Assembly: GCA_013361095.1 (NCBI GenBank)
Contig: JAATWA010000001.1
Location: 124,001-188,000, forward strand
Direction of reading: 5' to 3'
DNA from: Pseudanabaena biceps
Lineage (GTDB): Bacteria; Cyanobacteriota; Cyanobacteriia; Pseudanabaenales; Pseudanabaenaceae
DNA length: 64,000 nucleotides
Shown: positions 51,657 to 59,655 of the stretch, piece after piece
How the letters are laid out: the number at the start of each line of letters is the position of its first letter
Position numbering within the stretch: position 1 is the first letter of the stretch
Made by a program: the position numbers and the translations under genes
The notes under the pieces: generated by a model
Told to the model about the DNA's origin: nothing
What the model saw: only the letters and a program-made list of their open reading frames with translations
The model's database searches: none

Positions 51657-52338
51657 TTTGTTAACTACTTCTCCAGAGATGTTAAGGTCATACAAAATCG
51701 GCACACCCGTTGCTAGTTCTAGGGTTGTCACTTCCTCTGAACTAAGGCAATCGAGCACCATTCATGATAGAACGTAAAGAGTTACCATGGGCAGCGATTA
51801 GAACGTTTTCACCTCGAAGTAGATGAGGCAAAATACGGATTTTGAAATAAGCAATCACTCGCTTTTGAGTATCCTCTAAACTCTCTCTTCCAAGTGGTCG
51901 AACGCTGAAAGACCTGCGCTATTCATGTACCCTTTCGTTGCCATACTTGATAGCGGTTTCGGTTTTATTTAAGCCCTGCAATTCGCCATAAAACCGCTCA
52001 TCAAGAGCAGCATTTGTGAATATAGGTAACTCTTCAGCCGCATTTCCATCATAACAATCCCAGCCATTCCAATCTTAGTCAGATTGTTCGTGCTTAATAA
52101 TCGGAATTTTGCCACCACAGATATCATCGCGTTCTGTAAGACAAATAGTGGCGGTCTCGATCGCCCGAATTAATTTACTGGTAAAACAGACATTTACTCG
52201 ATAGCCACTGAGCCGACAAGAAGCGATCGTTGCTTCCGCCCGACCACGTTCACTCAGAGGGACATCTACCCATCCCGTGAATTTATTGAGGGCATTCCAA
52301 AGGCTCTGTCCATGCCGAACCAAGATAAGTTGAGCCAT
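51657..52338 (-). pseudogene. gpmA: decayed phosphoglycerate mutase (gpmA)
   Basis: The first 87 codons are intact (MAQLILVRHGQSLWN to KHEQSD) and contain the RHG catalytic motif. A stop at 52077-52079 follows. The same frame continues as [43 protein letters not shown], another stop in place of Trp, [21 protein letters not shown] and [16 protein letters not shown]. After a frameshift the end reads TTLELATGVPILYDLN. It is a full-length gene with at least two stops and one frameshift. A short peptide from the intact part would lack most of the active site. Confidence 0.88.
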
Positions 52339-53095: not shown

Positions 53096-53150
53096 AGGAT
53101 GTCGCTCAGCATTTTTCAGGAATGTCCTCAATAAAAATCTACTTGAAAAT

Positions 53151-54110
53151 CTACTCAAGCAATGGCAAAATCTGCCGAATTAGTCCGATCATCACCGCAG
53201 GTTGCTCTAACTGTGGAGTAAATCCAACATCATCTAGATAGTAAAAGCGACGAATGACTTCAGGGTTCATCGCCGCAAGATCACGACCGACATTAGGGTT
53301 TGTGAACTGAGAACCCTTGCCCCAAATCATGGCGGTAGGAATTGTCAATTTTGTGATGTATGAAGACAAATCAAAACATAAATCACCGCGAACGAAGGAG
53401 AGCGCTGCGTACTCTGCATTCTCACGTTGAGCCGATTCCAGATAAGCATCGACAATTTCAGGAGAAACTAGCGATGCATTGGCAAACTGGCGTCGTTCCA
53501 AAAAGTTACGAATACCAAAGCTGTTTGCTACACCCGTACCGTAAAGTAGTTGATTGAGAAAAGGGGCATTCACAGCCTGAGCAAACTGGGCGAAGCCGCT
53601 ACGGCGATAGTCTTGCCCAAACTCGCTTAAACCAGAGGCTGTGGTAACAATTAATGACTTGAATAACTCTGGGCGAGCGATCGCTGCCCGAATTGTGAAT
53701 GCAGCTGTCAATGACGAAGCAATTACCGTTGTCGGAACGGAACAGACCTGCTCCATGAATTCGATGATCGTACCGATGTAATCTTCGGCTGTATAGCCGC
53801 GAGCGGGATGATCGGATCGCCCCCAGCCAATCAAGTCAGGAGCCAAGACTTGATAATCTGCGGCAAAAGCTGGATATACTTTTGACCATTCGTAGGCGCA
53901 GGAACCACCGCCAAAGCCATGCAGAAAGACCAATGCTTCTGTTGGAGTATGTTCATTCCAAGGCTCGCCTTGAGCCGTGTAATAGACCATCCTGCCAAGT
54001 TTGGTCAACACCGAACGTTCATTAAAACCACGAGGTATAAACATTGATTTCTTATGTGTATTATTTTGCATAAGTCTTTTTTGATACGAATTAACCAGCA
54101 ACAGGCGCAT
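53151..54110 (-). CDS. alpha/beta hydrolase-fold protein with altered catalytic residues
   Basis: The fold is clear: EALVFLHGFGGGSCAYEW, APDLIGWGRSDHPARGY, TTVIASSLTAAF at the nucleophile elbow. The elbow reads ASSLTAA rather than GxSxG. The usual GHxPQLEQP motif reads GFTPQLEQP, so the catalytic His is Phe. It may be a non-hydrolytic member or use another residue. ATG 54110 gives the longest frame; ATG 54044 (MFIPRGFNERS) is an equally likely start. Confidence 0.75.
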   Translation of the reverse strand: MRLLLVNSYQKRLMQNNTHKKSMFIPRGFNERSVLTKLGRMVYYTAQGEPWNEHTPTEALVFLHGFGGGSCAYEWSKVYPAFAADYQVLAPDLIGWGRSDHPARGYTAEDYIGTIIEFMEQVCSVPTTVIASSLTAAFTIRAAIARPELFKSLIVTTASGLSEFGQDYRRSGFAQFAQAVNAPFLNQLLYGTGVANSFGIRNFLERRQFANASLVSPEIVDAYLESAQRENAEYAALSFVRGDLCFDLSSYITKLTIPTAMIWGKGSQFTNPNVGRDLAAMNPEVIRRFYYLDDVGFTPQLEQPAVMIGLIRQILPLLE

Positions 54111-54322
54111 TCATTGAATGTCAAAATTTTATGCACAATTTAGATGCCAGTTAGAGCCTGCCAGACAAATAAACCCATTACAACTATATTAATCGCAACA
54201 TGAATGTTCTGAACCCAGTCATGCTTTTGCATAAAGGGAACTAGCTTGGTTATCAATGTCAAGATTGGTATGTCGCCAACTTCCCGCGATCGCTAATCAA
54301 CTCAAAGAATGAGCGGTATAAA

Positions 54323-54379
54323 AATAATTAGCGGTGCAAGGCTTTGCCTTGCACCGCTAATTATTGACTACGAAGGGAG
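54323..54379. repeat. TA-type palindromic element, left-truncated
   Basis: AATAATTAGCGGTGCAAGGC pairs with its complement around three bases and is followed by CGAAGGGAG, the family's right end. The right arm is identical to the first 15 bases of the window. Confidence 0.65.
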
Positions 54380-54384
54380 TGGCT

Positions 54385-54440
54385 TAATCGTTTAGAACTT
54401 TAGTATTTCTTTCAGCAGTATTCGATTTTGCCATATTTTT
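54385..54440 (-). pseudogene. duplicated 3' end of the 55.7-kb gene
   Basis: On the minus strand MAKSNTAERNTKVLND followed by a stop resembles the C-terminus of the protein at 55684-56037 (MYSDTAKRSAKALND and stop). The flanking TTTAATCGTTTAGA is also shared. It is a partial duplication that ends right after the HCP gene. Confidence 0.65.
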
Positions 54441-54939
54441 ATAATCCAGTTTCTTTGTCATGTGGACTAGAGCTAGGGTCAACACCCATGTCTGAAACCC
54501 AACTCCGCAAAACTGTCATCTGCTCCGAAAATTCAAGTTGTTGAAGCTGTTGCATACATTGAGTAGCTGCAGATTCAAGAGTGTAATTTTCTGGCATCGG
54601 AATGATTACTGTTGCATCCATTCCTTGAGCTAGTAAGTACCAAAACAACAATTTTGTTGTATCACTCAATGCCCCATATTCTCGACAAATCAAGCAATTT
54701 GTGCGCTCTATTAAATCACGCTGGATTTGTAACTGCTCCTCGTGAGACAACTCTTTAACTTGATTGAATAATCCTTCTGCTACAGCGGGTGCGGCGGTGC
54801 TAGCTCCAGGAGCGGCAGGCGTAATGGATTTTCCAACTTCTTTATAGATAAACCAAAACACAGCAAGCTGCTGATCTGTCGATAGAGATTGGAAAGCTGA
54901 AACTAAATCGGAATGTAGATCTTTAATGAGTGTTTGCAT
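54439..54939 (-). CDS. helical carotenoid protein (OCP N-terminal domain homologue)
   Basis: The 166-residue protein is a complete Carot_N domain: FQSLSTDQQLAVFWFIYKEVG, LFNQVKELSHEEQLQIQRDLI, REYGALSDTTKLLFWYLLAQGM, VIIPMPENYTLE and EFSEQMTVLRSWVSDMGVDP. Aromatic carotenoid-binding residues W29, Y32 and W100 match W41, Y44 and W110 of OCP. HCPs bind a ketocarotenoid and quench singlet oxygen or phycobilisomes. It lacks the NTF2-like regulatory domain, which is encoded separately and divergently at 55242. Confidence 0.9.
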   Translation of the reverse strand: MQTLIKDLHSDLVSAFQSLSTDQQLAVFWFIYKEVGKSITPAAPGASTAAPAVAEGLFNQVKELSHEEQLQIQRDLIERTNCLICREYGALSDTTKLLFWYLLAQGMDATVIIPMPENYTLESAATQCMQQLQQLEFSEQMTVLRSWVSDMGVDPSSSPHDKETGL

Positions 54940-55241
54940 AATAATTTACTAACTAATTCTTCGATTTGTATTTTCTAATTTCCAATGTTTATATTACTAA
55001 CATTTTTATCTAATGAACACCTGCTTTGGAAAGACTTTATAATCTACCAAAAGACAGGTTGTAATATATAACTATTTATACTTTTATCTAAACATTTTAA
55101 AGCTTATTATTTGCATATGAAACCAGCACAAAATTTGCTAATTTATCTTCAAATTTCAAGCTAAATTAAAAGTTTTATTAAGTTATTAATATAATGTCTT
55201 ATTTAATTTGTAAAACCAAATAAATCCTTTATCTTATAATT
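54940..55241. promoter_or_regulatory. shared divergent regulatory region of HCP and CTDH
   Basis: The very AT-rich 302 bp separates the two starts and must hold both promoters. No convincing -35/-10 pair or operator palindrome stands out. Confidence 0.4.
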
Positions 55242-55673
55242 ATGAAAGATATTTCCTCAAATAATATAGACCTATTCATTAATATTGATGGTATTAATGA
55301 ATTAACCATTTACGAATACTTTGCAGGATTGAATAATAATGAGTTTATGGCGACTTCTGAATTATTTGCAGAGCAAGGATGTTTAAATCCACCCTTTGAA
55401 CAAACTGTGTGTGGCAGAGATGCGATCGCACAATATTTAGAGAAAGAAGCCAAAGGAATAGAGTTTTGTCCAGCCTATGGAGAAATGATTAAGAGTGATA
55501 ATGCATTTACTCAATATCAAATCCAAGGCAAAGTGAAAACAAACCAATTTACAGTTAATGTAAATTGGTTAATACAATTAAATTCTGCCAAAGAAATTCT
55601 TCTTGTAGAAGTAAAATTAATAGCTTCTTTAATTGAATTATTAAACTTTAATAATTCAATTATTCTGCTTTAA
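55242..55673 (+). CDS. CTDH (OCP C-terminal domain homologue, NTF2-like)
   Basis: The 143-residue protein matches the OCP C-terminal domain: IYEYFAGLNNNEFMATSELFAEQGCLNPPFEQTVCGRDAIAQYLEKEA. CTDHs bind carotenoids as homodimers, deliver them to HCPs and can form OCP-like hybrids with them. Two cysteines in the sequence (GCLNPP, TVCGRD) may allow redox-linked dimers, as reported for some CTDHs. It is divergent from the HCP gene. The C-terminus is AT-rich and hydrophobic. Confidence 0.85.
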   Translation: MKDISSNNIDLFINIDGINELTIYEYFAGLNNNEFMATSELFAEQGCLNPPFEQTVCGRDAIAQYLEKEAKGIEFCPAYGEMIKSDNAFTQYQIQGKVKTNQFTVNVNWLIQLNSAKEILLVEVKLIASLIELLNFNNSIILL

Positions 55674-55683
55674 TCGTTTTGAT

Positions 55684-56037
55684 TTAATCGTTTAGAGCTT
55701 TGGCACTTCTCTTAGCTGTATCTGAGTACATTGAACCAAAATCTTTGACGGCTTCAGCTGATTGCTCTCCAATTCGTTTTAAACGTTCTACTGGGCGACC
55801 TTCTACTTCGCGAGCTTGTTGTTCCCACTCTCCACTTGTTTTAGGTCTAGTGGAATCGTCTTGATGAACAGTCTCATCGATTTGTTTGATCGCTTGCTTA
55901 GTCTCACTGCGACTAGGAACAGCACTAGTAGTTAGTAGCAAAAAACCGACCAAAACAATTGGTAAAGACTGTTTCACATGTAAACTCTTAAAGAAAGAAA
56001 AGAATTTGGCGATCGCTTGAGAAATGAAATTTAGCAT
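55684..56037 (-). CDS. small exported protein of unknown function
   Basis: From ATG 56037, supported by AGGAGA five bases upstream, the product has 117 residues. It has a long signal peptide or anchor (VKQSLPIVLVGFLLLTTSAVPSRS) and a mature part rich in Lys/Glu/Ala (TSGEWEQQAREVEGRPVERLKRIGEQSAEAVKDFGSMYSDTAKRSAKALND). I recognise no family. The frame is open upstream to 56187 only because it runs into an alcohol dehydrogenase remnant. Its 3' end is duplicated at 54385. Confidence 0.65.
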   Translation of the reverse strand: MLNFISQAIAKFFSFFKSLHVKQSLPIVLVGFLLLTTSAVPSRSETKQAIKQIDETVHQDDSTRPKTSGEWEQQAREVEGRPVERLKRIGEQSAEAVKDFGSMYSDTAKRSAKALND

Positions 56038-58039: not shown

Positions 58040-59318
58040 AACTGGTGGAGAAATCGCTATACTTTTGCAAAAATTCGCCGACTAGATATAAAGAACCACA
58101 CAGAATAACTACTTCATCTGGTTGCAGATCGTGAAAAGCCCTTTCTAAACCTGACTCCAAACTTTCATAGGACTGCGGGAGCTTTTTGACATACGCTGTC
58201 GCCATATTCGCCAAATTCTGTGGCGAAGTCGTGGCAGGGTTATCAATCGGTACTGTATAAAATCCATCATCAGGAGATAACAGTTCCTTCAAAATGCCAG
58301 ATTGATCCTTTGTGTTCAAAATTCCCATCACCCAACGCTTACGTTGATCAGCGTAAGTCTCATCCACAAATTGTCTAAGATAGGTTGCCGCCGAAACATT
58401 ATGCGCCCCATCAATTAGGATTTTGCATAACTTCCCATGCAGATCAAATTCTATCCATTGCAATCTTCCATCCCATCTCGTCTGTGACATTCCTAAGCAA
58501 ATTGCATCATCACTAATTTTCCAACCCTGAGCGCGTAAACATTGCACAACGGCAATTGCGATCGCAGAATTAAGCAACTGATATTTGCCTAGTAGCGGCA
58601 ATGGATACTCAAAATCTTGCCAACTTGCTCCTGTCCCTTTTCGATCAGCCGCCCTCACCCAAGTAATTGGAGCATGACGCTCTAAGGCGATCGCTTGCAA
58701 AGTGGCGATCGCTTCGGGAGCATTTTCAGCAATGATCACGGGACATTTAGGCTTGATAATTCCTGCTTTTTCGGCGGCAATCGCACTCAATGTATTTCCC
58801 AATTGCTGACAATGATCTAGTCCAATGGAAGTAATCGCGCAAACTAACGGGCGATCGCATACATTTGTCGCATCTAACCTACCGCCTAAACCTGTTTCAA
58901 TGATGGCGACATCCACTTTTTGCTCAGCAAAATACCACCACATTGCCGCCGTAATCACTTCAAATTGTGTGGGCGGCAACTCTGGATTAATTGCAGTTTC
59001 AATCCTATTTAAAGCAATTGTCAAATCCTGTGGACTAATCCATTCACCATTGATGGTAATGCGTTCACGCCAATCTAATAAGTGCGGCGAAGTATAGCGC
59101 CCCACCCGATAGCCTGCGTTCTGCAATATCGACAATAAAAAAGCACAAACCGAACCCTTTCCGTTTGTGCCTGCAATGTGAATTATGGGAACTTGTTGAT
59201 GGGGATTACCCAAACAATTAAGCAGTTGGTGAATTCTTTCTAAACCTAAATGGATGCCAAATTTATCAAAACTGGCAAGATATTCTTCGATTGATTGATT
59301 AATTGGTTTTGGAGACAT
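58038..59318 (-). CDS. folC: folylpolyglutamate synthase / dihydrofolate synthase FolC
   Basis: FolC adds glutamate to dihydropteroate and folates. The 426-residue Mur-ligase-type protein has the P-loop IHIAGTNGKGSVCAF, the domain motif TSPHLLDWRERITING, VAIIETGLGGRLDATN, LIDGAHNVSAA and the C-terminal domain. The start overlaps the upstream NTF2-like gene by 20 bp, so the two are translationally coupled. The gene's last bases coincide with the end of a palindromic element. Confidence 0.95.
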   Translation of the reverse strand: MSPKPINQSIEEYLASFDKFGIHLGLERIHQLLNCLGNPHQQVPIIHIAGTNGKGSVCAFLLSILQNAGYRVGRYTSPHLLDWRERITINGEWISPQDLTIALNRIETAINPELPPTQFEVITAAMWWYFAEQKVDVAIIETGLGGRLDATNVCDRPLVCAITSIGLDHCQQLGNTLSAIAAEKAGIIKPKCPVIIAENAPEAIATLQAIALERHAPITWVRAADRKGTGASWQDFEYPLPLLGKYQLLNSAIAIAVVQCLRAQGWKISDDAICLGMSQTRWDGRLQWIEFDLHGKLCKILIDGAHNVSAATYLRQFVDETYADQRKRWVMGILNTKDQSGILKELLSPDDGFYTVPIDNPATTSPQNLANMATAYVKKLPQSYESLESGLERAFHDLQPDEVVILCGSLYLVGEFLQKYSDFSTS

Positions 59319-59655
59319 GAACTTCTAAGGCGTAGATTTTGCCTTGGGTATCGACTTCAGCAATATGTCTGCCTTGCATCGCAAATAGTTCACCACTATC
59401 ACGCTTGCCCGCGATCGCCCAAATGGCTTCTAGTCCATTTTCCGTCTTTCTGGTCGTCCAAACACGTTGCATTCCTGAATAGGACTGAAAAAATTGTCGA
59501 TATAGTTTTTCAATAGCTTCTTTGCCAACAACTTTACGCGCTCCCGCAGGCTGTACTTCAGCTTGTTCGGCAAATAGATCGACTAGTTCACCGATAGCAG
59601 CTTGGTCGCCACTAGCGCGATCGGATAATTCAAAATATTGATCCAAGATAGTCAT
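59299..59655 (-). CDS. NTF2-like (SnoaL-type) protein
   Basis: The 118-residue cone-fold protein shows the typical pattern YFELSDRASGDQAAIGELVDLFAEQAEVQPAGARKVVGKEAIEKLYRQFF, then TTRKTENGLEAIWAIAGKR and a final KIYALEVHV strand. Members are small enzymes, binding domains or immunity proteins; no function is assigned here. It overlaps folC and lies upstream in the same operon. Confidence 0.78.
   Translation of the reverse strand: MTILDQYFELSDRASGDQAAIGELVDLFAEQAEVQPAGARKVVGKEAIEKLYRQFFQSYSGMQRVWTTRKTENGLEAIWAIAGKRDSGELFAMQGRHIAEVDTQGKIYALEVHVSKTN

Follow-up and report, generated by a model that had tools for sequence, protein, structure and literature searches.

A divergent HCP1 and CTDH gene pair

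The window, a 64,000-nucleotide stretch of the Pseudanabaena biceps genome, encodes homologues of the two domains of the orange carotenoid protein (OCP) as separate, divergent genes. We propose that they probably form an uptake-and-transfer pair, in which carotenoid passes from a C-terminal domain homologue (CTDH) to a helical carotenoid protein (HCP) of the HCP1 clade, most likely in a reversible manner, and that they are not a split light switch. The HCP gene, a homologue of the OCP N-terminal domain, lies on the minus strand (54439-54939; 166 aa) and the CTDH gene on the plus strand (55242-55673; 143 aa). Both open reading frames are intact and are arranged head to head, 302 bp apart, around a shared upstream region (54940-55241) that is noticeably AT-rich, with a GC content of 20.5% vs 41.9% for the window. 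The original prediction, that the two halves of OCP are encoded as two genes diverging from an AT-rich gap, is therefore upheld by the reading frames, their homology to OCP domains, and the base composition. The shared region may exert bidirectional control; sigma-70-like sites on both strands of 54100-55800 showed no excess (nine, vs a shuffle mean of 7.8, sd 2.9).

The HCP matched Pfam Carot_N (PF09150) at 7.9e-58 and 195 bits (cut-off 25), and among solved structures it is closest to the red carotenoid protein (5fcx/5fcy; E 1.3e-55). It comprises a single Carot_N domain with no C-terminal NTF2 domain in its 166 residues, as expected of a helical carotenoid protein. The CTDH fell under every Pfam cut-off (SnoaL_2, 17.1 of 27 bits), and its identity rests instead on solved relatives and a confident predicted NTF2 fold. 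Its sequence matched the Anabaena CTDH All4940 at 1.5e-29. The AlphaFold model, built with an alignment of 21 selected CTDH rows, is an NTF2 fold (pLDDT 88) whose best PDB match is 8qx7 (1.2 A rmsd over 116 columns, 48% identity); 9r84, a C103F mutant, is also among the fold matches. A second SnoaL/NTF2-like reading frame of 118 aa is present beside folC (59299-59655, minus strand); it was rejected as a CTDH because it is a weak match in which most ligand residues are absent.

Clade and ligand residues

Clade assignment, which had been proposed as a check, placed the HCP in HCP1. Both FastTree, which took in 14 of the OCP rows, and IQ-TREE grouped the window HCP with Anabaena HCP1 (5fcx) and separated it from OCP, from the 8qx5 clade, and from other HCPs. 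In the 98-row IQ-TREE tree, from which 16 loci were dropped (near copies, several OCPs, L196, and L214), the HCP1-clade branch contains 66 rows with support of 100/98, and a long-branched 13-row HCP clade also falls inside it. The closest kin of the window HCP are Chamaesiphon proteins, with up to 80% identity over 147 columns. The HCP retains W41, Y44, W110, and R155 (OCP numbering), while N104 is replaced by Thr and Ser60 by Ala. Ketocarotenoid binding is predicted from the retained W41, Y44, and W110.

The CTDH retains Y201, W288, the PPF patch, and E244, with Gln in place of W277, and has a four-residue deletion in common with Anabaena CTDH. At the site of Anabaena CTDH Cys103, it carries Phe. 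Published CTDH groups are divided into CCP1, with Phe, and CCP2, with Cys at the same site (PMC7512017). The window CTDH is accordingly a CCP1, combining an NTF2 fold nearest CTDH/OCP-CTD with Phe at the Cys position of CCP2. The conserved Cys that forms the intermolecular disulfide of CCP2 is missing from the head-to-head CTDHs compared: Phe occurs in 15/15 such rows of an alignment that includes 10 of the OCP rows and leaves out CTDH pieces under 95 aa (L058). Phe at 103 was rejected as a mark of linked CTDHs because most other CTDH rows carry it as well (14 of 21, with six Cys and one Val; the count omits the L054 second copy and the window reading frame at 59302). The C-terminal tail is also diverged, lacking the proline of the ASPQELL motif and bearing extra residues at its end. 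This proline is found in none of the 15 head-to-head CTDH rows vs 16 of the 21 others. Since the five remaining proline-less CTDHs (L006, L016, L098, L211, and L214) all lie in HCP-holding loci, its absence is only a suggestive sequence mark of linked CTDHs.

Light switching and phycobilisome quenching

It had also been suggested that such pairs can form a light-responsive hybrid, with photoconversion and phycobilisome quenching proposed as checks. Contacts between the OCP domains are N104-W277 and R155-E244, together with the linker. In the window pair, N104-W277 is lost on both sides and there is no linker, while R155 and E244 are kept; the features of a split OCP photoswitch are thus incomplete. 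Photoswitching in OCP has been credited to the added linker (PMC10172135). That HCP and CTDH would assemble around one carotenoid into a light-switchable heterodimer able to quench phycobilisomes consequently appears unlikely. The retained R155 and E244 speak for such an assembly, as does a report that separately expressed N- and C-terminal domains of OCP form OCP-like carotenoid-binding heterodimers (PMC12059629). Against it, besides the replaced contact and absent linker, are the HCP1 clade of the HCP, the existing OCP and FRP of the host, and the reported lack of a light response in an HCP5-type Euhalothece HCP combined with its CTDH and canthaxanthin (PMC6971039). The suggested light response is not supported.

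Quenching likewise finds no support in an HCP of this type. Phycobilisome quenchers of the HCP4 and HCP5 clades are described as having Arg at position 60 of OCP numbering and Phe at position 147 (PMC12059629). The window HCP has Ala at 60, though Phe at 147, and the latter is found in Anabaena HCP1 too. Among four Anabaena HCPs, only HCP4 was reported to quench phycobilisomes in vitro (PMC12059629); HCP1 is a proposed carrier (PMC6123778).

Proposed function

Of the original claims about mechanism, carotenoid transfer from CTDH to HCP is the one we accept as the likely chemistry of the pair, by analogy with Anabaena. In that organism, CTDH is reported to take carotenoid from membranes and give it to HCPs; transfer is enabled by reduction or by the C103F change and is sped by the C-terminal tail (PMC6123778). 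The same study describes donation by CTDH-C103F to HCP1 and HCP4, neither of which can extract carotenoid from membranes, and return of the carotenoid by HCP1 alone among the four Anabaena HCPs, not by HCP2-4 (PMC6123778).

Following this model, the window CTDH would extract canthaxanthin or echinenone from the membrane with the aid of its C-terminal tail and would pass the pigment to its partner HCP1. With Phe in place of Cys103, no disulfide of the kind that locks Anabaena holo-CTDH could form, which would leave the CTDH permanently competent for transfer. HCP1 would also be able to hand pigment back, and the pair may therefore store and shuttle ketocarotenoid in soluble form or act as an antioxidant, perhaps also loading the OCP of the host. 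Co-expression of both genes would be maintained by the AT-rich region between them. It is the combination of an HCP1-clade protein with a natural Phe-type CTDH that suggests reversible shuttling or storage of pigment. Among the points against a transfer pair, the window CTDH has diverged in the tail on which transfer in Anabaena depends strongly, one linked locus (L058) has a broken CTDH, and only an HCP remnant was recovered from a Pseudanabaena relative (G006).

The 5.57-Mb host genome encodes two CrtW-like ketolases (CrtW is the best family for each, at 336.7 and 229 bits, although neither score reaches the cut-off of 350), CrtR, and a complete OCP (C17:3.2356 Mb) with FRP just upstream. 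A search of this genome found one CTDH and one complete OCP only. Such a complement would also suit two genes that are co-expressed under stress and work apart, with HCP1 as an antioxidant or carrier and CTDH mainly charging OCP, so that linkage reflects shared control and not a dedicated pair. Expression in Fremyella favors this alternative, as hcp1-3 and ccp2 reportedly fall into a single expression class, and salt is reported to induce all three hcp genes by over 30-fold (PMC8739951). We nonetheless regard it as rather improbable, based on the conservation of the pair described below.

Linkage across cyanobacteria

Searches with the window HCP returned 56 loci, 53 of which are HCP1-type. 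A CTDH lies upstream of the HCP in 13 of these 53 loci from elsewhere, in every case head to head, which argues that the linkage is not due to chance and bears out the predicted association as a linked, co-inherited pair. The 13 hosts span several unrelated cyanobacteria, among them Chamaesiphon, Chlorogloea, Alkalinema, Kaiparowitsia, and a Microcoleus MAG. Linkage to CTDH is not required for HCP1, since in 36 of the 53 loci no CTDH is found in the available upstream DNA, which spans 1.7 kb or more; the remaining four end at contig edges upstream. These 36 loci are what would be expected of proteins working apart. Conversely, flanking genes vary among the linked loci and the head-to-head order is the same over all 14; in the HCP and CTDH trees alike, proteins from linked loci cluster with one another.

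Strict monophyly of the linked HCPs is weakly supported. They form two supported groups (97/92 and 100/95) in the 98-row IQ-TREE tree, where linkage takes three changes; in the 53-row HCP1 tree they form a single branch with weak support (86/46). Linked CTDHs sit in a 17-row group (87/92) together with L006 and a second Chlorogloea copy, and their strict monophyly was neither shown nor rejected (AU p 0.178) in a tree that omits L211, L214, and the window reading frame at 59302. We raise, as a less likely reading, that head-to-head HCP1-CTDH pairs might constitute a distinct module for carotenoid exchange that moves horizontally. In this view, HCP1 would have become the dedicated two-way partner of a CTDH that lost both redox lock and tail proline, and the module would have spread by itself through cyanobacteria as an OCP-independent soluble ketocarotenoid buffer.

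Two further observations arose from these loci. The L058 record is titled Candidatus Gracilibacteria and holds cyanobacterial HCP, CTDH, and OCP genes, as seen in a set of 25 of the 56 HCP loci; the bin is probably mislabelled. At L077, L079, L092, and L094, the HCP is in tandem with a second HCP from another clade, suggesting that HCP-HCP pairs exist besides HCP-CTDH pairs.

Relation to known systems

Adjacent HCP and CTDH genes have been described for two other clades. In Anabaena sp. PCC 7120, HCP4 (All4941) neighbors CTDH (All4940) (PMC6123778), and HCP4 and CTDH carry neighboring tags in Chlorogloeopsis (PMC6424891). All4940 has the same four-residue deletion and ligand residues as the window CTDH; the Anabaena pair differs in its HCP4 quencher clade and redox Cys103, compared with an HCP1, a Phe, and a head-to-head arrangement in the window. 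Euhalothece encodes an adjacent HCP5-CTDH1 pair (ezr2074/ezr2075) with a CTDH of the CTDH1 type (PMC6971039), which differs from the window pair in HCP clade. The tag prefix suggests that these two genes are on the same strand. For HCP1 alone, the relatives are Anabaena HCP1 (5fcx/5fcy), of the same clade, and Tolypothrix HCP1, which has the same clade name in print and co-occurs with a CTDH that is of the Cys type, unlike that of the window (PMC7512017). OCP1 is homologous to the pair in both domains and has the ligand residues in common, but it joins them through a linker in a single polypeptide and carries N104/W277.

In the literature covered, which did not extend to Melnicki 2016 and Muzzopappa 2017, we found no description of HCP1 next to CTDH. 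The window pair thus adds HCP1 to HCP4 and HCP5, bringing to three the HCP clades with a linked CTDH. For HCP1 as a proposed carrier, natural pairing with a CTDH that lacks the redox cysteine provides matched partners. In its predicted structure, the window CTDH resembles the engineered Anabaena C103F mutant and would be a natural counterpart of the protein used to work out transfer. HCP1-CTDH linkage also bears on the origin of OCP from such pairs.

Distribution in Pseudanabaena

Within the genus, we compared 26 genomes (the host, G000, and G001-G025). A CTDH of this kind occurs in two of them, G000 and G006; a second match in G010 falls in an OCP-length frame. In G006, whose assembly is 82% complete, only the last 33 residues of the HCP were recovered, beside an inverted repeat. 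Sparse occurrence, the G006 remnant, a pair-less site in G003, and the extra C-terminal residues on the window CTDH could be taken as signs of a horizontal acquisition in decay and with no present function. We consider this very improbable: both window reading frames are intact with their ligand residues retained, and the window and G006 CTDHs differ by a dN of 0.074 and a dS of 0.41. This dN/dS of about 0.18 indicates, at the level of coding sequence, that the CTDH is under purifying selection.

Immediately beyond CTDH and convergent with it lies gene X (55684-56037, minus strand; 117 aa with a hydrophobic N-terminal stretch), which matched no Pfam family at E values of 0.05 or below and is present in three of the 26 genomes (G000, G003, and G006). 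In G003, gene X is contiguous with a palindrome that lies left of HCP in the window, the pair is absent between them, and no separate HCP or CTDH was found. A degenerate copy of the gene X 3' end is located on the other side of the pair (54379-54434, minus strand). In a local alignment of 54300-54460 vs 55641-55800, the closest match joins 38 bp of this copy (about 54384-54421) to 55684-55721, two stretches that flank the HCP/CTDH block. This arrangement would fit insertion of the pair beside gene X as well as its loss from G003 through recombination of the two repeats. The palindrome itself (37 bp, 54326-54362) consists of AATTAGCGGTGC, a variable complementary core, and GCACCGCTAATT. It has 13 copies of 36-37 bp in the host genome (control, 0) and a similar copy at the G003 site; pairing is mostly kept as the core varies, resembling a REP-type dispersed hairpin.

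Neighboring genes

The original prediction pointed to nearby light- and pigment-related genes, a GAF gene and CruG, and this context proved not to be specific. Neither gene was present in the locus DNA compared at any of the 13 other linked loci, and the GAF gene was found in G003, which is without the pair; both were rejected as module partners. A common wider neighborhood was likewise rejected because too few linked loci have a DAGK-like gene (2/13), a gene X homologue (1/13), or a YflT-like gene (3/13, with matches below the YflT cut-off). In L043, roughly 1.3 kb separate the gene X homologue from CTDH, and gene X is at most a candidate member of the module.

To the left of the pair, an 87-aa reading frame (52075-52338, minus strand) is presumably a truncated phosphoglycerate mutase, recognized by eye from its start. 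An abhydrolase gene and its flanks (53131-54244) make up a 1.1-kb block that recurs in five of the 25 other genus genomes with 86-91% protein identity. Its surroundings differ among genomes, one being a P. galeata plasmid, which suggests that the block is a mobile accessory element.
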